Shown here piece by piece: positions 2,998 through 24,180 of a DNA stretch of 34,027 bases. How positions within the stretch are numbered: the first letter of the stretch is position 1; each line of letters opens with the position of its first letter. A program made the position numbers and the translations under genes. The notes under the pieces were generated by a model. The model had not been told where the DNA came from. It did no database searches and saw only the letters and a program-made list of their open reading frames with translations. The DNA is from Muribaculaceae bacterium (GTDB taxonomy: Bacteria; Bacteroidota; Bacteroidia; Bacteroidales; Muribaculaceae), in assembly GCA_016281825.1 (NCBI GenBank), contig JAEEJI010000053.1, positions 1 through 34,027 of the forward strand, read 5' to 3'.

Positions 2998-4371
2998 TCA
3001 CAGTCGGCGCAGCTGAACGGTGAAGTGCCGCATCAGCGGAGCTTCCCACTCAATGGCGACACCGCGCGTAATCTCGTTGCGGCGGTCGTACACGTTCTTC
3101 AACGCGGCGGCAATCACATCCATGTGATTGTCGGTATAGACGCGGCGGGGTATGCACAGGCGCAAAAGGTCGAGACCGCCGAAGCGGTTCTCACGAGTGA
3201 CTGGGTCGCGGTCGGCTAGGATGTAACCAATCTCGCAACCGCGGATTCCGGCCTCCAGATACAACTCGCAAGTCAACGTCTGGGCTGGGAACTCTTCTTT
3301 AGGAATGTTGCACAACACCTTGTCGGCATCGATGAACAGGGCATGTCCACCGGCAGGACGCTGGTAGGGGATGCCATAGTCATCGAGTTTCTTTGCCAGG
3401 TACTGAACTTGGTGGATGCGGGTCTCGAGCATGTCAAATTCGGTGTTCTCGTCCAGACCGACGGCCAGTGCGTTCAAGTCACGACCATTCAAACCACCGT
3501 ATGTGATAAAGCCTTCGAAGGGAATACAGAAGAGTTTGGCTCCCTCATACCAGTCCTCGTTATTGGTGGCAATAAAGCCGCCCATGTTCACCAGACCATC
3601 CTTCTTGGCAGACATGGTCATGGCATCAACGTAGCTGTACATCTCGCGGGCAATCTCCTTGATGGTTTTGTCTGCATAACCTTCCTCACGCGTCTTAATG
3701 AAGTAACTGTTTTCGGCGAAGCGAGCCGAGTCCATAACCACGGGTACGCCATACTTGTGGCACAGCTCGCAGGTCTCGCGGATGTTCTGCATCGAGACGG
3801 GCTGTCCACCAACGGTGTTGTTAGTGACGGTAAGAACCATGAATGGCACGTTGCCTGGGTTCTCGCGAAGCACTTTCTCAAGTTTCACAAGTGATACGTT
3901 GCCCTTGAAAGGCAGTTCAAGTTGGGTGTCCTTGGCCTCATCAATGGTCACATCGATGGCGTATGCCTTGCGGCTCTCGATATGCCCCTTCGTGGTGTCA
4001 AAGTGAGCATTCCCGGGGATGACATTGCCTTCTTTGACAAGATAAGAGAATAGCACGTTCTCGGCGGCGCGACCCTGATGGGTGGGAATGACATACTTGA
4101 AGCCAAAGAGGCGTTGCACGACCGACTGGAACTTATAGAACGACGTGGCACCGGCATAGCTCTCGTCGCCCAACATCAACTCGGCCCATTGGCGGTCGCT
4201 CATCGCACCGGTACCCGAGTCTGTCAGACAGTCGATGTAAACTTGCTCGGCTTTGAGCATGAACACGTTGTAATGGGCTTCTTTCAGCCACTGCTCTCTC
4301 TCCTCGCGAGTACTCTTGCGAAGAGGTTCAATCATCTTGATTTTCCAAGATTCAGCAAACGGTAATTCCAT
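2998..4371 (-). CDS. tnaA: Tryptophanase (tryptophan indole-lyase)
   Basis: This 457-residue PLP enzyme would split L-tryptophan into indole, pyruvate and ammonia in the cytoplasm. Length and N-terminus resemble tyrosine phenol-lyase, so the specificity residues matter. Asp125 in HFDTTKGH corresponds to E. coli TnaA Asp137 (Thr in tyrosine phenol-lyase). Ile381 sits where tyrosine phenol-lyase has its substrate-binding Arg381. His449 in MRHFT corresponds to TnaA His463 (Phe in tyrosine phenol-lyase). All three favour tryptophanase. Lys257 in SAKKD is the PLP lysine, and Tyr72 in DESYAG is the conserved active-site Tyr. The gene stands alone with its own promoter. No TnaC leader peptide or permease gene adjoins it, so the regulation differs from that of E. 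coli. Confidence 0.93.
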   Translation of the reverse strand: MELPFAESWKIKMIEPLRKSTREEREQWLKEAHYNVFMLKAEQVYIDCLTDSGTGAMSDRQWAELMLGDESYAGATSFYKFQSVVQRLFGFKYVIPTHQGRAAENVLFSYLVKEGNVIPGNAHFDTTKGHIESRKAYAIDVTIDEAKDTQLELPFKGNVSLVKLEKVLRENPGNVPFMVLTVTNNTVGGQPVSMQNIRETCELCHKYGVPVVMDSARFAENSYFIKTREEGYADKTIKEIAREMYSYVDAMTMSAKKDGLVNMGGFIATNNEDWYEGAKLFCIPFEGFITYGGLNGRDLNALAVGLDENTEFDMLETRIHQVQYLAKKLDDYGIPYQRPAGGHALFIDADKVLCNIPKEEFPAQTLTCELYLEAGIRGCEIGYILADRDPVTRENRFGGLDLLRLCIPRRVYTDNHMDVIAAALKNVYDRRNEITRGVAIEWEAPLMRHFTVQLRRL

Positions 4372-4423: not shown

Positions 4424-4454
4424 CAAATATACAAAAAACTGCAATACACCACAA
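4424..4454 (-). promoter_or_regulatory. Bacteroidota promoter for tnaA
   Basis: Read on the - strand, CTTG (core TTG at 4452-4454) is followed by 20 bases and then TATATTTG (4424-4431), a perfect TAnnTTTG -7 box. It predicts a leader of about 45 bases before the tnaA ATG. Confidence 0.8.
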
Positions 4455-4475: not shown

Positions 4476-5951
4476 TCAACGCATGATTTTTTCACCATTT
4501 GATGACACGATCACACCATGGCTGTCGGGCGTGGCAAGACGGCCATCAAGAGTGTAACTTATTGATTGTGTGCTTGGTAATTCGCTGGAAATAGACGAAA
4601 TGCCAGATTGGGAGTTGAATTCTTCACGGGCAGCGGTGAGCAAGGAGCGCATCGACGGATCGGACATCATATTGGCAAATACCATACCGCCGAGCAGTTG
4701 ACCGGCTTCAACATCGCTTTGCCAGTTGGTGCCCGCAATGACGCGGCTCTGGCCATACTCCCAACCGCGTTTAAGAATCGTGTCCTGGTTGCTTGGACAG
4801 ATGTCCATCAACAACAAGGCTGACAACCACCCGACAGCAGCGTGCTCTGAGGGGTAACTGCTAATGGGAGATGAGGTGATTGTTCCGTTCAAAGGGGACT
4901 CTCTAAGACGTTCATACGGAGGACGGCGATGGTTGACTGTCTGGAGCATATAGCAGTTGTCGGTCGCCTGAGTTATGCCAGTCTCGAGCAGTCGGTAGAT
5001 GGTTGGGGTTGTGGTGGCAGCGATGTTGATGCCAAGGATTGAGGCGAATGCATTGCTGATGCCCGCCACAGTCATGTCGGCATCGGCAATGGCTTGCTGG
5101 CCCAGAAGGTCATCGCGTTGGGATTTGCCAGAATAGAAGGCTGTCACGTCGTATGCATAAGCTGCACCCGTACTGTCAGGCTGCTCGGGAAGGAACTCAA
5201 TGGATGGATGGAGCTGATTAAGTGCGGTGGGGCGAGTGTTGTGGGTAGCGCTGTCATATTCGGCTTGGGCCTTGTCAACGGCGGCGAGATATGCTTCACT
5301 TACATGAAGACGGGCAAAATTGGCCGAGGTCATAAGTCGGGCGGCATTGACATCACTCTGCCAATGAGCGCCAATGATGAGACGGCTCTGACCATACTCG
5401 TAGCCACTATCGAATAAGTCATCTTGCACTTGGGGGTTTATCTCGGCTAGGATTAAAGCTCCGGCCCAGCCAAACATGGAATGAGCAGAGGGGTAAGAAC
5501 CTTGCTTACGCAAAGAACTGGCTTTCTCGGGACCGAAGACTGGGTCGTTAAAACGGTCAAATGGTCGCCGACGGTTATAGTATGTCTTGGCTGCGCCACA
5601 TGACTGGCCAATGTAGTTCATGGATGTGTAGAGTAACTCGCGGATGTCTGGGGTGCTGGTGCTAGAAGCAAGTAGACCAAAGATGTTTTTCATTCTTTCG
5701 GCTATATACATGGCGCCATAACCCACGTCGGTCAACGCTTGTTGGCCGCGATCACTGTCACGCAAACCCTTGTGGTACATATATTGATGAACATCATAGG
5801 CAAACGCCATGCTCAATGAGTCAGGGGGGGGAGGTAGATATTTCACGGCTGTGGGATAAGGCATGTCCATGACACTCGACAAGCCTTGGCCGCTAACTGC
5901 AAGAATGAGAAAGCATGAAAACAATAGGGTTATCGTTCTTTTCATAACCAA
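4476..5951 (-). CDS. Exported two-domain PAP2 (class A acid phosphatase-like) protein, C-terminal domain degenerate
   Basis: The 491-residue protein starts with a signal peptide and holds two PAP2/acid phosphatase domains in tandem. The first has the full KX6RP-PSxH-SRX5HX3D signature: Lys122, Arg129-Pro130, PSAH 154-157, Ser189-Arg190, His196 and Asp200. In the second the Lys position is Leu336 and the nucleophilic His is Asn409 (GTNWQSD), although PSEH 367-370 and Ser402-Arg403 remain. The second half is thus probably inactive or a binding domain. The C-terminal tail (DGR...GVIV...EKIMR) resembles the short C-terminal domains common on exported Bacteroidales proteins, perhaps a type IX secretion or anchoring signal. 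It is the last gene of a four-gene operon, 12 bases after the LRR gene. Met3 is an alternative start. The natural substrate is unknown. Confidence 0.85.
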   Translation of the reverse strand: MVMKRTITLLFSCFLILAVSGQGLSSVMDMPYPTAVKYLPPPPDSLSMAFAYDVHQYMYHKGLRDSDRGQQALTDVGYGAMYIAERMKNIFGLLASSTSTPDIRELLYTSMNYIGQSCGAAKTYYNRRRPFDRFNDPVFGPEKASSLRKQGSYPSAHSMFGWAGALILAEINPQVQDDLFDSGYEYGQSRLIIGAHWQSDVNAARLMTSANFARLHVSEAYLAAVDKAQAEYDSATHNTRPTALNQLHPSIEFLPEQPDSTGAAYAYDVTAFYSGKSQRDDLLGQQAIADADMTVAGISNAFASILGINIAATTTPTIYRLLETGITQATDNCYMLQTVNHRRPPYERLRESPLNGTITSSPISSYPSEHAAVGWLSALLLMDICPSNQDTILKRGWEYGQSRVIAGTNWQSDVEAGQLLGGMVFANMMSDPSMRSLLTAAREEFNSQSGISSISSELPSTQSISYTLDGRLATPDSHGVIVSSNGEKIMR

Positions 5952-5963
5952 AGATGTTAAATG

Positions 5964-6848
5964 TTAATACTTTCCTAACATGATATTAATTAATTGATTG
6001 ATGTCCGAAATATCAATTTTGCCATCCTGAGTAAGGTCGCCTATTGTCAAATCAACGTGCTCTCTGCCCAACATGTCGTTAATCAATAAGTTCACATCAG
6101 CAATGTCAACTAATCCATCGGCAGTCACATCGCCCTCTTCGGCACGTTCATCGAGATGACTGAAACGAGGCCATTCGGATGAAGCATCATAGGCTTGTTT
6201 CGAACCCAGGTGAACATACACCTGACAAGTGGTGTACCATGATGATTGGCTGTTCAACGGGCCATCGCATATTGCGGGTACAGGGTTGAGCAACGTGAGC
6301 GACTGAAGGGGGGTCTGGTCGAAAACACACCTCCCCAAGTATGACACCCCACGACCCAAGGTCAGCGAAGATAGGCTTGGGCATTCAGCAAAGGCGTACT
6401 CTTCAATCTCAGACAATCTGTTGTACATCTTCACCTCACGCAGTAATGGACAGTGATAGAAGCTATAAGCCTCAATGCATTCAAGTTTGCGACCTAGGAT
6501 GACCGACTCAAGCTGTGGGCAATTGCTGAATGATTCGACCGAAACACTCAAAGCATTATTGGGCAGCTGCACGGTGCGGACGTAGGTGTTGTTGATGAAT
6601 GGGGAACTGAACTCATCACCAATATATAATATGGTGTAAATGTTTCCTTCATATTCCACTGTCTCGGGGATTATGACATCAGGTGATGAACCGGTGTAAC
6701 GTAGGAGCGTTGCTGTCAGTTTGCCCCAGATGTAGTTGCAGTCAAACACAAAGTCACCCGACTGATAACGTACAGCGTAAGCTGATTGAAATATCAGAGC
6801 CATGGCTATGATAGCGAATAAACGATACGGAGATGTGATTCTAATCAT
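5964..6848 (-). CDS. Exported leucine-rich repeat (BspA/LRR_5-like) protein with dockerin-like C-terminus
   Basis: This 294-residue protein has a signal peptide ending near QSAYA, then several LRR_5-type repeats (patterns such as ESFSNCPQLESVIL, YSFYHCPLLREV and YAFAECPSLSSLTL, about residues 100-190). At residues 239-294 are two EF-hand-like dockerin type I repeats with calcium loops DVTADGLVDIAD and DLTQDGKIDISD. LRR_5 proteins of this kind are often surface-exposed adhesins. Dockerins normally bind cohesins, but no cohesin is visible in the window. Its ATG overlaps the previous gene's stop by four bases (ATGA, 6845-6848), so it is translated within the PAP2 operon. It may bring the phosphatase-like proteins to a surface or ligand, but that is inference. 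Confidence 0.85.
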   Translation of the reverse strand: MIRITSPYRLFAIIAMALIFQSAYAVRYQSGDFVFDCNYIWGKLTATLLRYTGSSPDVIIPETVEYEGNIYTILYIGDEFSSPFINNTYVRTVQLPNNALSVSVESFSNCPQLESVILGRKLECIEAYSFYHCPLLREVKMYNRLSEIEEYAFAECPSLSSLTLGRGVSYLGRCVFDQTPLQSLTLLNPVPAICDGPLNSQSSWYTTCQVYVHLGSKQAYDASSEWPRFSHLDERAEEGDVTADGLVDIADVNLLINDMLGREHVDLTIGDLTQDGKIDISDINQLINIMLGKY

Positions 6849-8440
6849 GGCTTAACAATCTTCTTTCCTTTGCTCACGAGCACACCACGGCTATGTGGGG
6901 TGGCGCGTCGGCCATCGATGGTGAAGAGTGGAGGCTCGCTCTGTGATGGGTCTACTTGGATTGACGGTGAGTCGGTGATAACGACATCTTGTATGATGCG
7001 GTACTCGTTTTGTGCGTGATCAAGCAGGTCGATAAAGTCGCTGCCCGAAGCAACAAGCGACAAGGCTATGCAGCCAATGACTCGACCAGCCTCGACGTCA
7101 CTGTGCCAGTTGGTGCCAGATATCACACGGTTCAACCCATATTGATATCCGGCCTGTAACAAGGTATCGCGCCGCTCGGGAGCAATCATCGTGAGGGCTA
7201 GGGCAGTTGCAAGACCCTTGCTGGCATGAGCAGAAGGGTAACTGTTGACATCAACCAACTCATCGGGACTCTCTAGCGTGAACGGAGCAGTGTTGAAAAC
7301 AACGAATGGCCGCCGTCGACTTTGGGAGCGCGACTTGACTTGATTACACAACACATCGCAACACGACTCAACCAATCTCAATAGTTCATAGATGTAGGGG
7401 GTGGATTCCGGACTGATTGCAAGTGGAATGATGGGTTGGAAGGCATCCATCGGGTTCTCGAAATCCATGTAGCTGGCTCCTAATAAGTCGTTTGATGACA
7501 AACTGTCGCGTAACGGAGACAATGCTAGATAACGACTCATGTCACTCTGAAAACTACCGTCACTCTCTCCTTGAATGGCAGGAATCAAGGACGATAGCTT
7601 GTGGGTTAGTGTGTCATTGGACAATAACTGGTCGATGGTGGAGGAATTGCGATCAATGTTAAGCAACTGAGACGTGTGTTGGCGCAAGGATATCAGTCGA
7701 TTGCGGAAACGAGGTAGAGACATCAGTTCGGCAAAGACAACAGTACCTAATTGGCGAGTCACGTCAACGTCGCTGCTCCAAGCAGCACCGCTCAAGATAT
7801 TGAACCAACCATGTTGGTAGGCGCGAGAGAGGATTGTATCGGCATGCCAGGGATTGAGGCAACTCATTACCATGCCCGTGAGCCAGCCCGAGACACCAAA
7901 GTGTGACGGAAACGAGTTGCTGGGAGAAGAAGAATAGTTTGATGCGTAGTTGCTGGAAGTGCGGAGCATGCCAAAGTTTGCCTCGCGCAGACGAACACAA
8001 GGACGTAACCGATACCAAGAGTTGGGAATCTTCTGGATCATGAGGTTCGAACTTCTTCGGCAGGAATCCAAAAACAGAAACAAGTCTTTGTTGACACTTG
8101 TGTTTACCTGAATGCCAAAAGCGGGCTGGAAAAAAACGACATGGTTATTGGCATAGTAGATCTGAAGCGACGCCTCACTAGTGGAGCGATAGTCAAACGT
8201 GGCGTGCTTTATATCGTCGACATAAGCTGAATCGCGCAGAGATTTGAACAGGAAGTGACAATACATATCCCTTGCCCAATGAGGATTATTCTCATCATTG
8301 ATGGTGGCAGGAAGAAATACTGTCGGGTTGGGTGCCTGAGAGGATGAGAAGAACTGGCCATAACAAGCTGTGGGCAACGAGAGAACGATGACCAGCAACA
8401 GGATGATGTGTGACACAAGCGACTTCATGGGAGTGGTCAT
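6845..8440 (-). CDS. Exported two-domain PAP2-like protein, both active sites degenerate
   Basis: The 531-residue protein has a signal peptide (hydrophobic residues about 10-27) and two PAP2-like halves related to its operon neighbours. In the first half the PSxH motif reads PSHF (178-181), SR is Phe213-Asn214, and the catalytic His is Ala220. In the second half PSAH (402-405) is kept, but SR is Asn437-Arg438 and His is Asn444 in GTNWHSD. Neither half is expected to have normal PAP2 phosphatase chemistry. The C-terminal tail (DGRRATPHSRGVLV then KKIVKP) matches that of the 4476-5951 product. Both ends overlap neighbours by ATGA, indicating coupled translation. It is a likely pseudoenzyme, kept intact with no frameshift, which suggests a binding or structural role. 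Met5 is an alternative start. Confidence 0.82.
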   Translation of the reverse strand: MTTPMKSLVSHIILLLVIVLSLPTACYGQFFSSSQAPNPTVFLPATINDENNPHWARDMYCHFLFKSLRDSAYVDDIKHATFDYRSTSEASLQIYYANNHVVFFQPAFGIQVNTSVNKDLFLFLDSCRRSSNLMIQKIPNSWYRLRPCVRLREANFGMLRTSSNYASNYSSSPSNSFPSHFGVSGWLTGMVMSCLNPWHADTILSRAYQHGWFNILSGAAWSSDVDVTRQLGTVVFAELMSLPRFRNRLISLRQHTSQLLNIDRNSSTIDQLLSNDTLTHKLSSLIPAIQGESDGSFQSDMSRYLALSPLRDSLSSNDLLGASYMDFENPMDAFQPIIPLAISPESTPYIYELLRLVESCCDVLCNQVKSRSQSRRRPFVVFNTAPFTLESPDELVDVNSYPSAHASKGLATALALTMIAPERRDTLLQAGYQYGLNRVISGTNWHSDVEAGRVIGCIALSLVASGSDFIDLLDHAQNEYRIIQDVVITDSPSIQVDPSQSEPPLFTIDGRRATPHSRGVLVSKGKKIVKP

Positions 8441-9834
8441 TGTGAATTGATTTCAGCCAAAGCGGCACGTACCATGTCGGTGTATTCGCGGCAAGATGTG
8501 ACATAGCCAAAGGCGATGCTTGCAACCAATCGACCCATCTCTACATCGCTGGGCCAACTGCATCCCGTTGCTACACGGTTCTCGCCGAAAGCGACACCTT
8601 GCTTGAGAATTGCGTTCTGATTACTGGGACGCATCATCATCAACACCAATGAAGCTGTCCACCCCAGCGCCGAATGCAATGAAGGATAACTGTCGGTATA
8701 TAGTGTGGATAAAGCCTCGTTTGTAAGGGGCTGCATGTGGAGGATGTCGTATGGAAGAGGTTTGTCATAACGGTCTTGCATCTGCTCACACATCTTGCGG
8801 CACATGCGCAGGTGCATATCGACCAGCGAATAGATGGCTGGATGGCTTTCCGAAGTGATGGTTTTGCCTACTTGGCTAGAGAAACATGACAGAATGTGGG
8901 TCGTGCTGAGATCTATCTGATTATTCGCGGCAGTGACAACCGATGATGTACACTTGGACATCTTGTCGGTGAGGACGGCCATGTCACAACTGCCTACAGG
9001 AGTAGACATGTCGTAGGGACCTGACAAACGCTGTGTCAATAACGATAAGGTGTCGTCATTGGCAAATAGGGACTCAAAGGACGGGTACTCTGTACGACCC
9101 AACTCAACAAGAGTCTGTGAACGGGCGATGTCAATCAAGTTTAGCAGACTGTCATAAGAAAAGATGCGAGCATAGTTGGCCGTACATAGGATCTTACCGG
9201 CATCTACATCACTCTGCCAGTGTACACCCCCGATAACACGGCTTTGACTATGCGCTAATCCACGGTTGATGATGGTGTCGGCTTTCCAAGGATTGACACA
9301 CATCAGTGTTAAGGCGATTCCCCATGAGGCACTGGCGTGGGACGAAGGAAACGAGTACTCCGAGCTGCCGCCAGGCCTGAAGCTGCTGGAATAGGCACTC
9401 TCTACGCCAAACGTCGCCTCACGAAAACGACGACAAGGACGGACACGCTTGACACTTGACTTGAAATTGCTGGCCCTACTGAATATGTTGTAACTCTCAC
9501 TCAAAAGAGTTGATAATTGAGGAGCATGGGAAGACGATGGAAGGAAACCGAAGCCTGGTACTTGCCGAATAAGCATACTATCAACGCCCCAACGCATATC
9601 TGATGTGAGCGATGACTTGATGCTGTCTGTTCGCAATTTCTTGGCCTCGTAATACTTATACACATCGGCAAGCCACATACTGGCACCTGTGGTATCATTG
9701 GGAAGTGGGTAAAAATAGTAACCATTTGGTGCTGATGCGTATGGGTAGATAAGACCATGGACCGACGGGAAGAAACTTGTCAACATCAAAACGATGATGA
9801 CTGTCTTGAGTAGTATGTCGCGGGTCGGTTGCAT
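8437..9834 (-). CDS. Exported two-domain PAP2 (class A acid phosphatase-like) protein, first gene of operon
   Basis: The product is about 465 residues. An in-frame ATG at 9876 lies within the promoter, so the ATG at 9834 is the better start. It directly gives a signal peptide (basic start, hydrophobic run, cleavage near SVHG). The first domain is complete: Lys125, Arg132-Pro133, PSSH 163-166, Ser198-Arg199, His205 and Asp209. The second domain keeps PSLH (384-387) and Asp430 but has Lys-Pro in place of Arg-Pro, Asn-Arg in place of Ser-Arg, and Ser426 in place of the catalytic His. Unlike the other two PAP2 proteins it lacks the C-terminal sorting-like tail, ending AALAEINSQ. It overlaps the next gene by four bases. 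It is a likely periplasmic or surface phosphomonoesterase; the substrate is unknown. Confidence 0.86.
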   Translation of the reverse strand: MQPTRDILLKTVIIVLMLTSFFPSVHGLIYPYASAPNGYYFYPLPNDTTGASMWLADVYKYYEAKKLRTDSIKSSLTSDMRWGVDSMLIRQVPGFGFLPSSSHAPQLSTLLSESYNIFSRASNFKSSVKRVRPCRRFREATFGVESAYSSSFRPGGSSEYSFPSSHASASWGIALTLMCVNPWKADTIINRGLAHSQSRVIGGVHWQSDVDAGKILCTANYARIFSYDSLLNLIDIARSQTLVELGRTEYPSFESLFANDDTLSLLTQRLSGPYDMSTPVGSCDMAVLTDKMSKCTSSVVTAANNQIDLSTTHILSCFSSQVGKTITSESHPAIYSLVDMHLRMCRKMCEQMQDRYDKPLPYDILHMQPLTNEALSTLYTDSYPSLHSALGWTASLVLMMMRPSNQNAILKQGVAFGENRVATGCSWPSDVEMGRLVASIAFGYVTSCREYTDMVRAALAEINSQ

Positions 9835-9850
9835 GGAAGAGTTTAATGTG

Positions 9851-9882
9851 CAAATATACGTATTATCTCGGCACAAAACAAA
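9851..9882 (-). promoter_or_regulatory. Strong Bacteroidota promoter for the PAP2/LRR operon
   Basis: On the - strand TTTG (9879-9882), exactly 20 bases, then TATATTTG (9851-9858): a perfect match to both boxes. Transcription should start near 9845, leaving a leader of roughly ten bases before the ATG at 9834 and ruling out the ATG at 9876. Confidence 0.88.
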
Positions 9883-9885
9883 TAA

Positions 9886-10731
9886 TTAACTGTTTTTAGC
9901 TTTAGACAGGAGAGTAGACTCAGATGACAGAAGGATAATCTGTTGCTTGTATAGCTGGCCTAGAGCCTTCTTGAAGTCTTTCTTGCTGCAGCCGAAAGTC
10001 TTAAAAATCTCTTCGGGGCTTGTTTTGTCGGTCAATGTCATGATACCGCCATGGCTGGACAGATAATCCACTATGACTGTCGTCAAGTCGTCGACACGAG
10101 CCTTCTCAATCTTGGCAAGCGTAACGTCAACCTTGTCATCGTCGCGTACCTGCTTGACATAGCCTGTCAGGCGGTCGCCTATGTTCACGTCGGTCATAAT
10201 CTCATTGTGATAGATCATCCCCCAGTGACTGTCGTTGACTATGACCTTGAAACCTAGTTCGGTGCGCTGAACAACAAGTAAGTCAACGCGCTGGCGGTGA
10301 TAGTAGTTAGGGCGTTCCCGACTCAAGAACTTGTCGAGTTTTGCGCTGGCGACAATGCGGCCGCTGGGCTCGTCAAGGTATACATGCACCACATAACTGC
10401 GCCCAACCTTCATGTCAACGCGCTGCTCACGGAACGGTACGAGCAGGTCCTTGGCTACCAACCCCCAGTCCATAAAAGCACCAACGGCATTCACGGCCTT
10501 GACACGCAACAACGCGGTCTCACCGACGATGGCCGTTGGAGTCTCGGTAGTTGCGACCGGGCGGTTCTCTGAGTCATTGTAGACAAACACGCGCAACCGT
10601 GTACCCACAGGCATACGGTTGGTCACATAACGCTTGGGCAACAATACCTCGTTGCCCTCGTCATCAATTAGATAGACGCCAAAGTCCAACTCGCGGTTAA
10701 CACGCAACTCGTTATATTTTCCTATCTCCAT
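9886..10731 (-). CDS. CvfB-like S1 RNA-binding protein
   Basis: The 281-residue protein has the layout of the CvfB/YitL family: several S1-like OB folds followed by a C-terminal winged-helix. An N-terminal beta-rich unit carries FGVYLIDDEGNEVLLPKRYV, and a second has VGAFMDWGLVAKDLLVPFREQ, both typical of these proteins. The segment after residue 210 (ILTDKTSPEEIF-like, then FGCSKKDFKKALGQLYKQ) forms the winged-helix. Family members bind RNA and have been linked to virulence-gene control in Gram-positives; the role in Bacteroidota is not established. It is read from its own promoter and ends just before the promoter of the PAP2 operon on the same strand. Confidence 0.82.
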   Translation of the reverse strand: MEIGKYNELRVNRELDFGVYLIDDEGNEVLLPKRYVTNRMPVGTRLRVFVYNDSENRPVATTETPTAIVGETALLRVKAVNAVGAFMDWGLVAKDLLVPFREQRVDMKVGRSYVVHVYLDEPSGRIVASAKLDKFLSRERPNYYHRQRVDLLVVQRTELGFKVIVNDSHWGMIYHNEIMTDVNIGDRLTGYVKQVRDDDKVDVTLAKIEKARVDDLTTVIVDYLSSHGGIMTLTDKTSPEEIFKTFGCSKKDFKKALGQLYKQQIILLSSESTLLSKAKNS

Positions 10732-16677: not shown

Positions 16678-17829
16678 TTACTTGTGGGGTGGCGCGGTGT
16701 TGCCACCTTGGTTTCCAGTGGGAATATCAAAGTTCGTTTTGCCTAACATGGTGTTGATAACATGATTCAGATCAGCAATGTCGACCGTTCCGTCACGATT
16801 GACGTCGTCAATCATGTTATCAACTTCTTTGACTGTCACATCGCATGTCGCCGAAGGAAATCCCGGCTCATTGCCAGTGACAGTAATAACAGCATTACCG
16901 GGAGCGATGGCTATAACGAGGCCGGTGTCATCGACAGTGGCTACCAACTCGTCGCTTGACGACCAGGACACTGCCATGTCGGCGGGATTGGTGAAAGCAG
17001 TCAACTGATGGGTGTTGCCTACATACATTCTAATGTGTAATGCCAGGTGAATCCATGGCTGGAAGTCGAAGTCTGGCTCCAAGTCATCCACAATGATCTC
17101 AAACTGGTTCCAGGGCTCACATGACAGATACAATTCTTTGGTGCCGTTGGGCACGTGAAGCGTACAGGTCGAGAAATCAGGACCCTCGTAGAAGATATCG
17201 GTATAAATTGTAGTGGCGGCTGGACTCATGATGTGACTATAGATGTTCTCAAGCCTGTGGCAGCCTATGAAAGCATTAGAACCTATTCTTTGCACATTCT
17301 TTCCGATTGTCACGGACTTAAGGTTGTTACAAGACTGAAACATAAAGTAGCCCAGGTCCGACAACTTGTCAGGAAGGACTATCGATTCAAGTGAATTGCA
17401 ATCACTGAAAGCGCCATCACCGATTTGCTCCACGTTTTCGCCCATGGTCACAGATTTGAAATTTTTCAAATCGCTGAACGCCCATGCTCCGATGCTGGTG
17501 ACAGTGCTGGGAATGACAACTTTTTGCAGCGGAGGATAAGCTGAGGACATCATTCCAGAGAAGGCATAATTCTCTATGGATGAGACTGTATAGTCAACAT
17601 TGTCGTAGGTGACGGTCTCGGGGATGATGGCTTCGAACAAGTCGGGATATACATTACCATTCACTTTGAGGCTGGTGACACCCACAGTCTTGCCATCGGT
17701 GTGTTTCTTATAGGCCAAGCCATCCACAATAAAGTCGTAAGAATTCGAGAAACACGTTAATACAGTCATGACTATCATAAAGATCAAACAAGCAGATCTA
17801 ATCCGGAGAGAATAATTTGTAGTTTTCAT
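16678..17829 (-). CDS. Exported LRR_5 / Big_2 / dockerin-like surface protein
   Basis: This 383-residue protein has a signal peptide (hydrophobic residues about 12-28), LRR_5 repeats with alternating 'NAF...C..L..I.L/V' units at about residues 80-200, a Big_2 immunoglobulin-like domain at about 258-334 (HQLTAF...WSSSDELVATVD...GNAVITVTG), and one dockerin-like repeat with loop DVNRDGTVDIAD (342-353). It then ends with a short Gly/Asn/Pro tail. It is probably a secreted or surface adhesin. It is a paralogue of the gene just upstream (17896-19794), which it follows after 66 bases with no clear promoter, so the two are probably co-transcribed. The last 14 residues (TGNQGGNTAPPHK) do not look like a known sorting domain. 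Confidence 0.82.
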   Translation of the reverse strand: MKTTNYSLRIRSACLIFMIVMTVLTCFSNSYDFIVDGLAYKKHTDGKTVGVTSLKVNGNVYPDLFEAIIPETVTYDNVDYTVSSIENYAFSGMMSSAYPPLQKVVIPSTVTSIGAWAFSDLKNFKSVTMGENVEQIGDGAFSDCNSLESIVLPDKLSDLGYFMFQSCNNLKSVTIGKNVQRIGSNAFIGCHRLENIYSHIMSPAATTIYTDIFYEGPDFSTCTLHVPNGTKELYLSCEPWNQFEIIVDDLEPDFDFQPWIHLALHIRMYVGNTHQLTAFTNPADMAVSWSSSDELVATVDDTGLVIAIAPGNAVITVTGNEPGFPSATCDVTVKEVDNMIDDVNRDGTVDIADLNHVINTMLGKTNFDIPTGNQGGNTAPPHK

Positions 17830-17895: not shown

Positions 17896-19794
17896 TTACA
17901 TCGCTAGCCGAAAGCCTAAGCATTTGATGCTGAATGATGGCAACCCGCTATCACGAGTCGTGATTAAACAATAATCTGCATAGTCAAAAATGCTTCCTCC
18001 ACGAATAACGCGGTATTCACCTGAGTCTGGTCCGGTAGGATTGGTCTCCTCATCACTACTATAACTACCGAACCAGTCTTGACACCATTCACTCACATTG
18101 CCGCTCATGTCATAGAGATCAAGTTCATTCGCTTTCTTGAGCGCGACAGGTCGAGGGGCGACGAAAGGATTGTCATTAGGGTTTGGTTTGCTGTACCAAG
18201 CCACATCGTTGATGTTGTTGCTGCCCGAGTAGATGTAGCCCTGGCTCTTGTTGCCCCCGCGGGCGGCATACTCCCATTCGGCCTCTGTCGGGAGGCGGAA
18301 GTTCAAACCAGTGAGCTCGTTCAGTTCGGCAATAAACGTTTGGCAAAGGTCCCAGTCTACTGATGAAATAGGCACTTTATCATTATTAGGATAATCAGGA
18401 TTACTATAATTAGGGGGTGTGCCGCCCATCACTGCCACCCATAATTCCTTGGTGACTTCGGTTTGGCCGATGTAGTAACTGCTCAAGGTGACTTGTTTAT
18501 TTGCGTTTTGACCCATAGTGAAAGTGCCTCCATCGACATGTATCATGTTGATCACAACATCATTGACCATGCATCTTAGGATTGGCTTGGGCTTGCCTAG
18601 CATCGTGTTGATGACTTGGTTCACGTCACTGATATCGACCCTACCATCACCGGTGACATCACAACTGCACGTTCCCTCTTGGGTGGAATCGGAGGATATG
18701 CCTCCCTTGCCCAGCATCATGTTGATGACTTGATTCACGTCACTGATGTCGACCTGTCCATCGCCATTGGCGTCATCATTCATGTTACCAGTATTCTTGA
18801 CCGTCACTTGGCAAGTGGCTGTTGGATTGTTAGATGCATTGCCAATGACTGTGATGACGGCATCGCCAGTGGCGACGCTCTTGACGATGCCGTTCTCGTC
18901 GACTGTGGCGACGCTCTCGTCACTTGACGACCAACTCAGATCCATGTCATAGGGATTGCTGAAGGCGGTCAACTGATGCGTGCGACCTGGAAATGTCGAC
19001 ACGTTAGACACGTTCAAGTGAATCCAACCGTGTGAGTCGTAGTCAGCCACAAGGTCTTCAACAATGTTCGCAAATGAATTCCAATACTCACACGACTCAT
19101 AGAATTCTTTGGTTCCGAGGGGGACATGTAACGAGCATAATGATTGGCGTACACCATAGAAAGGGTCATGTATTATTGTTGTGGCAATAGGATTCATGAG
19201 GTGAGTATAGATGTCCAAGAGATTGTGGCAAGAATAGAAAGCATTGACACCTATACTCTCAATATTCTTTCCGATAGTCACTGACTTCAAACTACTGCAC
19301 CCCCAAAAAGTATTACCCTCTATCTTCGTCAACTTAATAGGCAGTTCAATTGACTCAAGTGAACTGCATTGGTAAAATGCAGACGAGCCGATACTCTCCA
19401 CATTATCGCCAAACGTGACCGTTTTAAGATTCTGGCATTTCAAGAAAGCGTCATCACTGATTCTAGTCACAGTGTTGGGAATGACAACTTTTGTCAAAGG
19501 GATGGGGTTGTGTGAAACCCAACCCGAAAAAGCGAGACTCTCAATTGCAGTGACGGTATAAGTCATACCATTGTAGGTGACTGCCTCAGGGATATTGGCT
19601 TCAAGCAAGTTGGGATAGTTATTAAATATGTCAAGGCTCGTAACTCCCACAGTCTGGCCATCTGCGTGTTTCTTATAGGCTAGGCCATCCACAATAAAGT
19701 CGTAAGAATTCGAGAAACACGTTAATACAGTCATGACTATCATGAGAACCAAACAGGCATGCCTGCTCAGCTGAGTGTGGTTTGATGTTTTCAT
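17896..19794 (-). CDS. Exported LRR_5 / Big_2 / dockerin / FGE-like (SUMF1) fusion protein
   Basis: The start at 19794 gives a 632-residue protein with a signal peptide; an in-frame ATG at 19899 lies upstream of the promoter. Domains in order: LRR_5 repeats (about 80-200), Big_2 (258-333), two dockerin-like repeats with loops DANGDGQVDISD (341-352) and DVTGDGRVDISD (379-390), then a C-terminal formylglycine-generating-enzyme-like domain (410-632: GGTFTMGQN, LPTEAEWEYAARGG, DMSGNVSEWCQDW, RVIRGGS). The two closely spaced cysteines used by catalytic FGE are not seen in the last segment, only isolated Cys609 and Cys625, so this domain probably binds rather than generates formylglycine. Dockerin usually ends a protein; here it sits in the middle. 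Confidence 0.83.
   Translation of the reverse strand: MKTSNHTQLSRHACLVLMIVMTVLTCFSNSYDFIVDGLAYKKHADGQTVGVTSLDIFNNYPNLLEANIPEAVTYNGMTYTVTAIESLAFSGWVSHNPIPLTKVVIPNTVTRISDDAFLKCQNLKTVTFGDNVESIGSSAFYQCSSLESIELPIKLTKIEGNTFWGCSSLKSVTIGKNIESIGVNAFYSCHNLLDIYTHLMNPIATTIIHDPFYGVRQSLCSLHVPLGTKEFYESCEYWNSFANIVEDLVADYDSHGWIHLNVSNVSTFPGRTHQLTAFSNPYDMDLSWSSSDESVATVDENGIVKSVATGDAVITVIGNASNNPTATCQVTVKNTGNMNDDANGDGQVDISDVNQVINMMLGKGGISSDSTQEGTCSCDVTGDGRVDISDVNQVINTMLGKPKPILRCMVNDVVINMIHVDGGTFTMGQNANKQVTLSSYYIGQTEVTKELWVAVMGGTPPNYSNPDYPNNDKVPISSVDWDLCQTFIAELNELTGLNFRLPTEAEWEYAARGGNKSQGYIYSGSNNINDVAWYSKPNPNDNPFVAPRPVALKKANELDLYDMSGNVSEWCQDWFGSYSSDEETNPTGPDSGEYRVIRGGSIFDYADYCLITTRDSGLPSFSIKCLGFRLAM
18596..18767 (-). 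repeat. Direct repeat encoding the two dockerin-like units
   Basis: The segments around 18596-18650 and 18714-18767 are close copies: both read GTTGATGACTTG (one G/A difference follows), TTCACGTCACTGAT and a similar Asp-rich loop. This indicates a recent internal duplication of the dockerin unit within the gene. Confidence 0.7.
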
Positions 19795-19854
19795 ATTTAT
19801 GTGATTTTGTGATAGGCGCATAAATTTTGACACACATAGCGTTAATAATCTTTG

Positions 19855-19967: not shown

Positions 19968-22124
19968 CTAAATGATTACGTTACCACTTTGGTTAATATT
20001 AGTAAGACAACCACTAGGCTGGTTGACAAATGAACTGCAATGAATGACATTTCTAAGGATACTGACATTCCCAGTGTCATCGGCATTGAGGTTCACAAAT
20101 ATTGCAGCAGACTTGAATATATTGTTCTCAAGTGAGACGATGAGGTCATATTGACCCACGAGATTGAAACATGAGAAGTTAATGTTGCCCAAAAGAATTG
20201 AGTCAGATATACTGATTGTCGGGGTGTCCTGAACAAAAACATGACTGGAAAAGTCCAGAATGCAAGATTTTAACGTTAGACTATTACACATTGGAAAGGC
20301 GTGAACGAAGGCAACAGATTGGATGTGTGAGTTCTCCGCCTCAAAATAAATCAAATCTCCATAGTGTGTGGCAAGATAGTAGGCACGTGAGTTGTTGACT
20401 ATATTGCAATTGACAAGTTTGAGGTGTGGAGTATAGAGGGCCTGTCCTGTGACTGGATCATCTGGAATAGTACCACCTGAGCAAAACAAAGCACCCAGTT
20501 TCCAATCGGCTCGAGGTGGGTCAATATTGAACTCAAAACTGCAATTTTCAAGAATCATGTTGTGGCAACGGCAGTAGACGGTTTTACCATATTCAAATTC
20601 TGAATTTATGATGAACTTACTATTACTGATTTTAAAGCTATCATTAGTCTTTCCTAAATTAGACGACAATGCATAACGTGCTGCGTTGATAAGATTGTAT
20701 CTATCGGTCATCTCAAACAAGCAGTTATCGATAGTGTTGTTGTAAGAGTATTCTTTTAAAATCATCTCTGGTGTCTCGGTATCTTGTTTTGGACCACTGG
20801 CATTGTTGAGAAAGATACAGTCTTTTACGATGGTGTCATGAGCACATGTGGATATATCCAGACCTTGCAAGCAATAGTTTGAGAACACTCTCTCAATGGT
20901 TGTGTTTGCGCAATGCGAACCGACTGGCTGAAAATAGATATGGTCGAAGCTGCAGTCGTTCACATTAAAAGTACTCATTTCTTTAATGTCGCTGATGTTG
21001 CTATAACTAGAGATACCACATACGCCACCTTCACGCATCTCAAAATGGCAGAACTCAATGTGAATACATCTGCATGTTTCGCTAGTATTTGATAATTTCA
21101 TTGCATGAATCCCAATACCAGCAAGACCACATGTAGCTTTGCCATCATGATAAATCTCATAACAACTGTTTGACAATTCGGGATGAGAAACAATATATGA
21201 AGATTTTTCATTACATACTGTTGGGAAATCATGTATTAAGTGATATCCAACAAACTTCATGTGGTGGATATGAATGTTGTTGCAGTCCTGCAATTCTAAA
21301 TAGAATAGAACCTTACCGCCATACAATTCTAATTGGTTCCCGTTTGTGACTAAAACCGTGTTTTCCCAAGTATAATCATAAGTAGTGTATATGTCATTAT
21401 ATGAATAGAAGGCACCATTAAACTCGAACTTTATGCCAACGGAATTGCTTAAAAAACCACCAATCATGCTCCAAATGGAGTAGTTGTTTGTACCGCTTCG
21501 TTCCTGAATATCACATGTTATGTCAAAGAAGGTCCAGCTATGGGGTTCTCCGACAATCATGTCAGGAACGGCACCGAAGTTGGTGGCACGAAGCCAAGAA
21601 GAACGTGGGGTAAGGTCATCAAATGTACATCCGGCTCCGAAGCACACATTGTCGCCGTCAGGAATAAACTGAATGTTGGTTCCCTGAATGGCGGCACCGG
21701 CAAATTTACCTATTCCATGAAAAACAACAGTACTGCCATTACCGATTGTCAAGGAGCTAGTAAGCTGATGGACAGTGGTGACGTGATAGACCATGCCGGG
21801 TTGGCTGAAGTTGGTGGTGTCATTGAACTGCTCCAAACCAAGGGTGGTATTCATCAGCTCCATCATGTTGTCTCCGTTCCACGAGTAGAGGCGATTGGTA
21901 AGTGCGTTCAGATACAAAGCATGAACATCAGGGGCCGAATCGGTGTGGGTCGTATTAAGAGAGTCAACGACATAATGTCGAATCACTGACGTGCTGGGGA
22001 CAAAGACCAGACAGTCCTCATCTGGCTGGAAAATAATCTGTGGCGATCCTGATGGGGTGTCGATGTTGTCGAGCGCAACACCCATCGATGCCAGTGTCAC
22101 AATTTTTGGATAGTTTAATGTCAT
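19968..22124 (-). CDS. Parallel beta-helix protein, phage tail-spike-like, function unknown
   Basis: I do not recognise a named family for this 718-residue protein. The first 150 residues contain LYLNALTNRLYSWNGDNMMEL, similar to a module in Bacteroidota phage tail and adhesin proteins, followed by a segment with HGIGKFAGAAIQGTNIQFIPDG. After that comes a long region rich in short beta-strand units with Asn/Cys/Ser (patterns such as 'NNTIDNCLFE', 'NMILENCSFEF', 'SLTLKSCILDF', 'TISISDSILLG'), as expected for right-handed parallel beta-helix (pectin-lyase-like) folds. There is no signal peptide, unlike the neighbouring surface genes. No other phage gene is visible. It has its own strong promoter and a leader of about 160 bases. 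Confidence 0.7.
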   Translation of the reverse strand: MTLNYPKIVTLASMGVALDNIDTPSGSPQIIFQPDEDCLVFVPSTSVIRHYVVDSLNTTHTDSAPDVHALYLNALTNRLYSWNGDNMMELMNTTLGLEQFNDTTNFSQPGMVYHVTTVHQLTSSLTIGNGSTVVFHGIGKFAGAAIQGTNIQFIPDGDNVCFGAGCTFDDLTPRSSWLRATNFGAVPDMIVGEPHSWTFFDITCDIQERSGTNNYSIWSMIGGFLSNSVGIKFEFNGAFYSYNDIYTTYDYTWENTVLVTNGNQLELYGGKVLFYLELQDCNNIHIHHMKFVGYHLIHDFPTVCNEKSSYIVSHPELSNSCYEIYHDGKATCGLAGIGIHAMKLSNTSETCRCIHIEFCHFEMREGGVCGISSYSNISDIKEMSTFNVNDCSFDHIYFQPVGSHCANTTIERVFSNYCLQGLDISTCAHDTIVKDCIFLNNASGPKQDTETPEMILKEYSYNNTIDNCLFEMTDRYNLINAARYALSSNLGKTNDSFKISNSKFIINSEFEYGKTVYCRCHNMILENCSFEFNIDPPRADWKLGALFCSGGTIPDDPVTGQALYTPHLKLVNCNIVNNSRAYYLATHYGDLIYFEAENSHIQSVAFVHAFPMCNSLTLKSCILDFSSHVFVQDTPTISISDSILLGNINFSCFNLVGQYDLIVSLENNIFKSAAIFVNLNADDTGNVSILRNVIHCSSFVNQPSGCLTNINQSGNVII

Positions 22125-22494: not shown

Positions 22495-24180
22495 TCATAA
22501 AGTGGGGACATTTTTGATGATTTCTTTGAGATAATCGGCCAGTGGGACGGGTAAGGACAATTTGTCAGATAGCCTTTTCCGCATCCCGCGTATGGTGTTC
22601 TCGCTGGGGATGTCAAGGCAGACAGCAATATTGGCTGAACGCATTTGCCAGGCGGTCAAGATGATCAGGCCGCGTTCTTTGGAACTGAGGTCTGGGTGCT
22701 GTTTGAACAGTTTTTCCAGGGCATTGTCGTTGTGTTCGTCAATGTATTTCTGTAGTTCTTTCAGAAATTCTTCTCGTTGTGTAAACGATGAAATCTCTTC
22801 TTTGAACTTCTTCAGAAATACTTTTTCGGGCATCGAGGTGCTCATGTCGATGATGCGACCACAAAGGCCGTGATAGGCCGACAACAACTCGGTCAGACGC
22901 TTATTGAAAGTCATGCCTTTTTGCTGGATCCTGTCATTTGATTGCTGCAGTGATTCCCGTTCGTTGGCAAGCTCTTCAACATGTCTCATTAACGTACTGA
23001 CACGCTCTTGCTCGTGCCTTTTCATCAAATAAATGATGAATGATGCGGCTAGTATGATGAGAACCAAAACAATGAACAGTATCCCTCGCTTCATCTTCTG
23101 TTCGTAGAGTAGCGAATCGGTCATCTTATGGCTTTCTTGATAGTCGATGTCCAGGATGCGGTGCAGCACTTGGCTCTCGCGAAGAGAATCGTTCAAGTGC
23201 TCGCGCTGTTCATTTATTTGAACAGACTTTAGGAAATCTCCTTGATTCTCAGCGATGATCTTCATGCAAAACATTTTCAATGCCGAACGCTCAACGTCGT
23301 TTTTATCTGATTCTTGTTGGGATGCGGCATTGAGATAATACATTGCCGAATCATTGTTGCCAAGCAGGGCATAAGCGCAAGCGGCATCATAATGTGCATC
23401 GATAGTCCTTTCTTCGTTGGGATACTTGTTGATGCAGTGTAGAGCAATCTCTTTGCTGGTTTCGCAAAGCGAGTCTTTAAGGTAGCCCCGAGAAAGAAAC
23501 TCCAGGCTCCTGGCGCATAATTTAGTATTGTTGATTGCTTTTGACAGATGGTATGCTTCAAGAAGATTGTGTTTTGCGGAGTCGATGCCGTAATTACGAT
23601 AAAGCGCACCTGTCCCGAGCAGACAATAGATAATCTGCAAAGTGTCACCCACCTTATTATAGTAGTGCAATGCCTTTTCGTAACGGTGGAGCTCCTCGGT
23701 GTTTAAGAAATGGTTGTGCATTGCTATGGCCTCACCAATCCTTAAGTTGATTTGTCCTAAATTGCGATAGTCGGTGGTATCGGCCATGGATTCTGCTTTC
23801 TTGTACCATGACATGGCTGATTCTGAGTCTCCGTTATTCTCTTCTCTTAAACCCAGATAAATCATTGACCTGACGAGTTTCTCGCGGTCATTGCCATGCT
23901 GGCTATAGTAATCGTAGGCGGCACGGGCAAGGGAGTCACTCGCCAGGTCGAAATGGTTCGCACGGAAAGCGCTCTGCGTCCACATCAAGGCATAGTAGGC
24001 ACGAGATGACGGCGAACTCAGCGACGCTGTGTCTATCTGACGCAATAACGCCAACGAACTGTCGGGGTTGGTGTATACTAACTCATCGGCCAAACGAATG
24101 TTCCGTTCAGCCTCATGGTGGCATGCCATTATCATGCATATTAACACCCATGAAATCGCTACTAGAAACAATTTTCTCAT
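22495..24180 (-). CDS. Membrane-anchored TPR protein with C-terminal LuxR-like HTH
   Basis: The 561-residue protein starts with a hydrophobic segment ending in IMAC (Cys20, a weak lipobox or simple signal). Tetratricopeptide-like helices fill about residues 25-330. A transmembrane helix lies at 366-386, followed by a coiled-coil (about 390-420). The C-terminus (500-541: LSSKERGLIILTAWQMRSANIAVCLDIPSENTIRGMRKRLSDKL) is a helix-turn-helix of the LuxR-like type found in Bacteroidota TPR regulators. The layout suggests an outside or periplasmic sensing domain linked to cytoplasmic DNA binding. The target is unknown; the beta-helix gene immediately downstream on the same strand is a candidate. It has its own strong promoter. 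Confidence 0.82.
   Translation of the reverse strand: MRKLFLVAISWVLICMIMACHHEAERNIRLADELVYTNPDSSLALLRQIDTASLSSPSSRAYYALMWTQSAFRANHFDLASDSLARAAYDYYSQHGNDREKLVRSMIYLGLREENNGDSESAMSWYKKAESMADTTDYRNLGQINLRIGEAIAMHNHFLNTEELHRYEKALHYYNKVGDTLQIIYCLLGTGALYRNYGIDSAKHNLLEAYHLSKAINNTKLCARSLEFLSRGYLKDSLCETSKEIALHCINKYPNEERTIDAHYDAACAYALLGNNDSAMYYLNAASQQESDKNDVERSALKMFCMKIIAENQGDFLKSVQINEQREHLNDSLRESQVLHRILDIDYQESHKMTDSLLYEQKMKRGILFIVLVLIILAASFIIYLMKRHEQERVSTLMRHVEELANERESLQQSNDRIQQKGMTFNKRLTELLSAYHGLCGRIIDMSTSMPEKVFLKKFKEEISSFTQREEFLKELQKYIDEHNDNALEKLFKQHPDLSSKERGLIILTAWQMRSANIAVCLDIPSENTIRGMRKRLSDKLSLPVPLADYLKEIIKNVPTL

Follow-up and report, generated by a model that had tools for sequence, protein, structure and literature searches.

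A conserved gene set for tandem class A acid phosphatase-like proteins with catalytically incomplete halves in a Muribaculaceae bacterium

Our analyses of a 34,027-nucleotide stretch of DNA from a Muribaculaceae bacterium (assembly GCA_016281825.1, contig JAEEJI010000053.1; hereafter the window) have identified a conserved set of four adjacent genes, three of which (viz. A, B, and C) encode proteins consisting of two class A acid phosphatase-like PAP2 domains in tandem, and the fourth a protein with leucine-rich repeats (LRR) and a dockerin domain. The nucleophilic histidine of class A enzymes is absent from the C-terminal halves (C-halves) of all three tandem proteins and from both halves of B, and these absences are conserved in related operons. 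On balance, we think it somewhat probable that the products of the set are exported phosphomonoesterases in the form of covalent pseudo-dimers, B being an inactive partner. The window belongs to a genome of 2.83 Mb in 281 contigs that is 83% complete (G000; other genomes and loci are cited below by G and L numbers).

Results

Catalytic Residues and Fold of the Tandem Proteins

The Pfam PAP2 profile finds two stretches in A (the best at residues 122–219), two in C and one, in the C-half, in B, and with the NCBIfam profile for PhoC (NF045654) the three proteins give two matching stretches apiece. The two-PAP2 layout that the first-pass annotation of this DNA had assigned to all three is thus recovered with the PhoC profile, but only in part with Pfam, and the N-terminal half (N-half) of B was detected with a home-made profile built partly from that half itself. 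All three fall short of the NF045654 equivalog cut-off of 430 bits (A, 139.9; B, 132.4; C, 289.7).

The class A motif is given as KX6RP-(X12-54)-PSGH-(X31-54)-SRX5HX3D in excerpts of PMC12356135, where replacement by alanine of any of four catalytic residues of M2-32, including the motif-3 His, lowers activity by more than 99% with little effect on the fold. We scored the catalytic set of motifs 1–3 in the order K, R, S, H, R, H, D, the last His being the nucleophile. The residues read KRSHRHD in the N-halves of A and C, QLSHRSD in the C-half of A, PRSFNAD and KRSHRND in the N- and C-halves of B, and QPSHRND in the C-half of C; the full set is present in 2 of the 6 domains. These two N-halves match the class A motif (spacings were counted by eye), except that Ser or Ala replaces the Gly of PSGH, and the other four domains do not match it, the nucleophile being gone in all four and further residues in three. 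The description of all three proteins as double-domain phosphatases is therefore not supported as regards their enzymatic capacity, and B looks like a complete pseudo-enzyme because neither of its halves has the nucleophile.

A structure model of C (predicted local distance difference test, pLDDT, 87.7; predicted template modeling score, pTM, 0.85) contains two helical domains, the first of which has the all-helical class A fold and matches class A phosphatases in a fold search, and a short C-terminal tail of three beta strands. No match to the type A sorting tail of the type IX secretion system (TIGR04183) was found in A, B, or C at E<=0.1; the tails of B and C resemble a sorting tail by eye, and the genome has 8 TIGR04183 matches.

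Conservation of the Gene Set

C was used to search 101 congeneric genomes, that of the window included, and 7 of them gave matches at E<1e-120. The order A-B-LRR/dockerin-C-tryptophanase is found in 5 of the 101 (the window, L040, L041, L042, and L039, where a contig end cuts A), and a three-gene form, consisting of one tandem gene, the LRR/dockerin gene and C, followed by tryptophanase, in 2 further genomes of the genus (L043 and L044). The LRR/dockerin gene lies directly before C in all seven, and none of the loci drawn from 14 of the other 94 genomes has this gene set. Synteny in the window and six relatives thus bears out the earlier claim of a single set in which the LRR/dockerin gene stands among those for the PAP2 proteins, here PhoC/PhoN-like. 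At the looser threshold of E<=1e-5, PhoC-like matches to C occur in 85 of the 101 genomes, many of them covering some 200 residues of frames that have about 300 and are hence single-domain-sized. Among 397 genomes of the family, matches to B at E<1e-180 are confined, among the matches listed, to G000, G021, G072, and G007, the next being at 1.8e-74 (G013 is unlisted). The operon relatives L059–L064 come from metagenome-assembled genomes labelled Muribaculaceae (3), Bacteroidales (2), and Porphyromonadaceae (1); roe deer rumen is the source of two. In the domain tree, the N-halves of the first genes of L063 and L064 fall with A and B, and the C-halves of A and B are sisters (support 87), so that a later gene duplication seems to have given rise to A and B.

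A short-chain dehydrogenase-like gene, checked with Pfam in L040 only, immediately precedes the first tandem gene of L040 (2879–3649), L041 (2227–2997), L043 (5265–6020), and L044 (8503–9264); the window and L042 lack it. In G068, of the same genus, a set at another location (L085:7120-11618, on the contig of L143) consists of four single-domain class A genes followed by an LRR_5 gene, and adjoins a RarA-like ATPase gene (named by eye). The second single-domain protein lacks the nucleophile (His to Asn), and the end of the LRR protein looks, by eye, like a sorting tail, but TIGR04183 was not reported to match it. The set of L085 is an unfused counterpart of the tandem set.

Persistence of the Dead Halves

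We scored the 18 complete tandem proteins of the window and L059–L064, leaving out the truncated A of L059. The nucleophile is lost in all 18 C-halves and in 5 of 5 B N-halves, and is kept in the other 13 N-halves. The 18 C-halves without the nucleophile (hereafter dead) retain the motif-3 Asp (18), motif-2 Ser (17), motif-3 Arg (17), motif-2 His (16), and motif-1 Lys (4). In a tree of 107 domain rows, picked by hand from 193, they form one group together with L129 and a single-domain protein of L085 (support 90, quick method), which is consistent with one ancestral loss of the nucleophile.

Between the window and L059, the ratio of nonsynonymous to synonymous divergence (dN/dS; NG86 method) is 0.170/1.55 for the C-half of A, 0.181/2.58 for that of B, and 0.180/2.08 for that of C, i.e. 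near 0.1 in the three dead halves, as compared with 0.116/1.65 for the N-half of C and 0.019/1.02 for tryptophanase; the YN00 method gave no rates for 4 of the 7 stretches. These rates are rough and saturated, but they do not look like those of neutral decay.

Tandem Class A Proteins across the Bacteroidales

A wider set, comprising the best 80 of at least 563 relatives (78 loci) and the window, contains 96 complete proteins, of which 84 have two domains, 8 have one, and 4 have four. The truncated A of L059 is excluded from these counts too, and the single domain of L034 gave no motif reading. Both nucleophiles are kept in 53 of the 84 tandems, only that of the C-half is lost in 26, only that of the N-half in none, and both are lost in 5, all of them B orthologues. 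A sign test of one-sided loss in the C-half against the N-half gives 3e-8 (not corrected for kinship), and one of the 26 (L097:9411-10973) has an N-half that is otherwise incomplete. Trees from which the catalytic columns were left out require at least 7 changes of nucleophile state among C-halves and 2 among N-halves, gains and losses not being distinguished. In this set, then, most doubled enzymes have two sites, and the absence of one of them is a recurrent state.

A tandem layout unique to the operon, and a rule that the C-half of the family is always dead, were both considered and rejected on these counts. Since tandem proteins are common in the Bacteroidales, the distinctive part of the window operon lies in its dead halves and its gene set rather than in doubling alone.

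Active and Incomplete Tandems beside PafA-Like Genes

In 17 of 98 loci, which were chosen for PAP2 matches, the tandem or four-domain genes come after a PafA-like gene (14 distinct proteins), and these loci resemble the PafA loci of Bacteroidetes in this respect. The one such gene that was checked, in L058, scores 563.9 bits against NF042991, below the cut-off of 650. PafA is an alkaline phosphatase of another superfamily, and the PafA-like match in the genome of the window is on a different contig.

In L046, L050, L053, and L097, two tandems stand one after the other, the first with an intact N-half and the second with the full catalytic set in neither half; the second carries a Pfam dockerin in L050 and L097. 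Four-domain chains of about 950 amino acids (aa), with domains 3 and 4 incomplete, directly follow the PafA-like gene in four loci (L058:4340-7198, L106:7995-13663, L119:8001-10850, and L125:7938-10778), and a C-terminal dockerin is found in that of L058 (by Pfam), in one L106 protein, and in those of L119 and L125 (by a home-made profile). In the domain tree, the second tandem of L097 has its N-half in one group with their third domains (98, starred) and its C-half in a larger starred group with their fourth domains. The occurrence of active and incomplete tandems next to each other or in one chain is a sign that they are partners. This pairing seems to have arisen in parallel to the window operon, because B does not group with the PafA-linked incomplete tandems.

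In five other PafA-linked tandems (L117, L122, L124, L127, and L130), the N-halves fall with domain 1 and the C-halves with domain 4 of the four-domain proteins, which suggests an internal loss of domains 2–3. The four-domain protein of L058 exceeds the PhoC equivalog cut-off when its four domains are summed (486.7 vs. 430 bits), and annotation by score can therefore give the name PhoC to multi-domain, partly dead proteins.

The LRR/Dockerin Protein and Possible Surface Anchoring

The LRR/dockerin protein has BspA-type repeats (LRR_5, PF13306; 72.6 bits vs. a cut-off of 27.7), and the earlier identification of both its domains stands, since each scores above its Pfam cut-off. The genome of the window has at least 103 dockerin matches (150 candidates scored) and one cohesin match, below the Pfam cut-off; in the incomplete genomes of relatives, no cohesin was found in G013 or G021, and G007, G065, G023, and G072 have one above-cut-off match each. 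The dockerin was accordingly rejected as proof of surface anchoring, and cohesin-dockerin anchoring of the set is weakly supported. Dockerin assignments in all loci but the window, L050, L058, and L097 are based on a home-made profile.

Type I dockerins on non-cellulosomal proteins are also found in rumen Bacteroidetes, where their role is called not yet defined in excerpts of PMC7480376. In the window, by comparison, the dockerin is on an LRR protein within a phosphatase gene set, and no scaffoldin system is evident. Two other LRR genes lie on the reverse strand of the window, one (16678–17829) with LRR_5 and Big_2 domains, in which the home-made profile flagged a dockerin and Pfam none, and one (17896–19821) with a PF00404 match at 18598–18774.

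Gene Order and Transcription Signals

The features of the locus are summarized in Table 1. The ATGA overlaps of A with B (8437–8440) and of B with the LRR/dockerin gene (6845–6848) were confirmed on re-reading the gene coordinates, and the 12-base gap reported between the LRR/dockerin gene and C applies to a TTG start of C but becomes 18 bases with the ATG start. The site at 9851–9882, described as a perfect promoter, is an exact match to what we take to be the Bacteroidetes-type promoter consensus; the general pattern has 8 matches in the window vs. 0.51 expected from shuffled sequence. A TTG start for A at 9876 was rejected, as it falls inside this site and the later ATG gives a hydrophobic N-terminus. 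Between 4200 and 10100, one terminator-like site is present, inside gene C, vs. 4.2 in shuffles. A, B, the LRR/dockerin gene, and C look like one unit with tryptophanase outside it, since a promoter-like site of its own precedes the tryptophanase gene. Two large open reading frames on the reverse strand (19968–22124 and 22495–24180; 718 and 561 aa) have no Pfam match at E<=0.001.

Table 1. Features of the tandem phosphatase-like locus and its neighbors in the window
Feature	Position	Strand	Description
Gene A	8437-9834	-	Tandem class A acid phosphatase-like, 465 aa; ATG start
A N-half	9097-9756 (approximate)	-	Full catalytic set
A C-half	8440-9096 (approximate)	-	Motif-1 Lys and Arg lost; nucleophile His to Ser
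Gene B	6845-8440	-	Tandem class A-like, 531 aa; both halves without nucleophilic His
B N-half	7616-8350 (approximate)	-	Motif-1 Lys, motif-2 His, motif-3 Arg and His lost
B C-half	6941-7615 (approximate)	-	Nucleophile His to Asn; other six positions intact
LRR/dockerin gene	5964-6848	-	294 aa; LRR_5, then Dockerin_1
Dockerin type I domain	5979-6134	-	PF00404, residues 239-290; 27 bits vs. cut-off 22.9
Gene C	4476-5945	-	Tandem class A acid phosphatase-like, 489 aa; ATG start (alternative TTG at 5951)
C N-half	5235-5885	-	Full catalytic set; PhoC/PhoN fold
C C-half	4581-5234	-	Nucleophile His to Asn; motif-1 Lys and Arg also lost; second Pfam PAP2 stretch
Bacteroidetes-type promoter-like site TTTG-N20-TATATTTG	9851-9882	-	Exact match; upstream of A
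Promoter-like site TTG-N20-TATATTTG	4424-4454	-	Upstream of tryptophanase gene
Tryptophanase gene	2998-4371	-	922.9 bits vs. cut-off 750; 3' neighbor of the gene set
CvfB-type RNA-binding protein gene	9886-10731		Neighbor on the A side

Discussion

Class A enzymes have a homodimeric core. In the reading that we favor, two class A subunits would have been fused into one chain, in which the N-half of A and C may free phosphate from organic esters outside the cytoplasm at its His-nucleophile site, while the C-half, having lost the nucleophile, would be retained as a structural and possibly phosphate-binding partner, so that A and C act as covalent pseudo-dimers. B, by appearance a duplicate of the A lineage, would most likely associate with A, with C, or with both, in a scaffolding or targeting role, and the LRR/dockerin protein may be a co-exported accessory that probably binds a surface or polymer.

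Several observations weigh against this reading. Tandem proteins can exist without a dead half, since 53 of 84 tandem relatives retain both nucleophiles, and the 18 losses of the operon loci, which lie in one tree group, are not independent. The B N-half diverges fast (stem branch 1.68), as would also fit weak constraint, and the dS values are saturated, with none defined for 2 of the 7 stretches, viz. that same half (dN 0.222) and the LRR protein (dN 0.191). In the PafA-linked loci, the first halves of the second tandems of L046, L053, and L097 keep the motif-3 His and lose other catalytic residues. The placement of the halves of C rests on one AlphaFold model from 7 sequences, and structure prediction, which the first-pass annotation had proposed as a check, gave two helical domains for C, the first of class A type, but a poor model for B (pLDDT 50, 5 sequences).

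A bolder form of the pseudo-dimer reading, which we hold only tentatively, is that the set encodes a heteromeric extracellular phosphatase assembly with fixed roles, in which active A and C and dead B would be positioned by the LRR/dockerin subunit, and which would have evolved at least twice in parallel in the Bacteroidales, with four-domain fusions in the sister lineage.

The dead halves and B may instead be phosphate-ester binding modules that hold a phosphorylated polymer or surface (e.g., phosphoglycan, nucleic acid, or phytate) near the active halves, in the manner of the carbohydrate-binding modules of glycosidases. Other residues of the catalytic set are widely kept, as the 31 C-halves without nucleophile retain the motif-3 Asp in 31, the motif-2 Ser in 30, the motif-3 Arg in 24, and the motif-2 His in 23, the C-half of B departs from the active set at the nucleophile alone, and the incomplete tandems of L050 and L097 bear Pfam dockerins. 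The motif-1 Lys, however, is present in just 14 of the 31 (4 of 18 in the operon loci), and the N-half of B is without this Lys and both histidines in 5 of 5 cases, and we regard this alternative as unlikely.

It is less likely again that duplication made one site redundant and that the C-halves and B are drifting relics without function. Such decay could account for the varied residues that replace the nucleophile (N, S, T, A), the fast-evolving N-half of B and the repeated changes of nucleophile state among C-halves, but the frames are open in the orthologues read, dN/dS is low in three dead C-halves, Asp and Ser are retained in dead halves, and B is present in 5 of 5 genomes with the four-gene layout. 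Slightly more improbable than decay is a set of ordinary redundant acid phosphatases, in which doubling does no more than increase dosage and the LRR/dockerin gene, one of many such genes in the genus, is there by chance as a passenger. The abundance of dockerins in the genome of the window, the wide occurrence of PhoC-like, often single-domain-sized, matches in the genus, and the frequency of tandem proteins are all in keeping with redundancy; 4 of the 6 domains could not add dosage, however, and an LRR/dockerin gene precedes C in seven genomes, with an LRR gene also following the PAP2 set of the differently placed L085. A vanadium haloperoxidase-like or other PAP2 chemistry in place of phosphate release is highly improbable. 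These PAP2-superfamily enzymes, known from fungi, algae, and bacteria, have a chain with two helix bundles, one variable and one conserved and bearing the site, for which duplication and fusion are proposed in excerpts of PMC4859513. They appear in the fold list of C, with some rows spanning parts of both halves; a whole-length haloperoxidase-like fold was not shown for C.

The N-halves of A and C share fold, catalytic motif, and sequence with class A phosphatases such as PhoC, PhoN, EB-NSAP, and M2-32. The solved members of the class are single-domain chains that dimerise, whereas here two domains, the second dead, share one chain, and unlike those systems the present one includes a wholly dead paralogue and an LRR/dockerin gene. 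The statement that class A PAP2 enzymes are usually single-domain agrees with the enzymes covered in the excerpts of PMC12356135. Pseudo-enzymes are a familiar feature of the kinase and tyrosine phosphatase families. A search of the open-licence literature found none among class A acid phosphatases, and in publications on tandem, duplicated, or pseudo PAP2 or class A phosphatases (including excerpts of PMC6355987 and PMC8812569) it did not find this architecture, in line with the earlier remark that no described system of this exact layout was known to the annotator.

The proteins described here form a graded natural series that runs from single genes through fused pairs with either two sites or one, and pairs that are wholly dead, to four-domain fusions, and that allows the role of a dead subunit in a dimeric enzyme to be tested directly. 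They are also relevant to the release of phosphate from organic esters by gut Bacteroidales and, if the heteromeric assembly is real, they would represent an acid phosphatase complex built on pseudophosphatase subunits.

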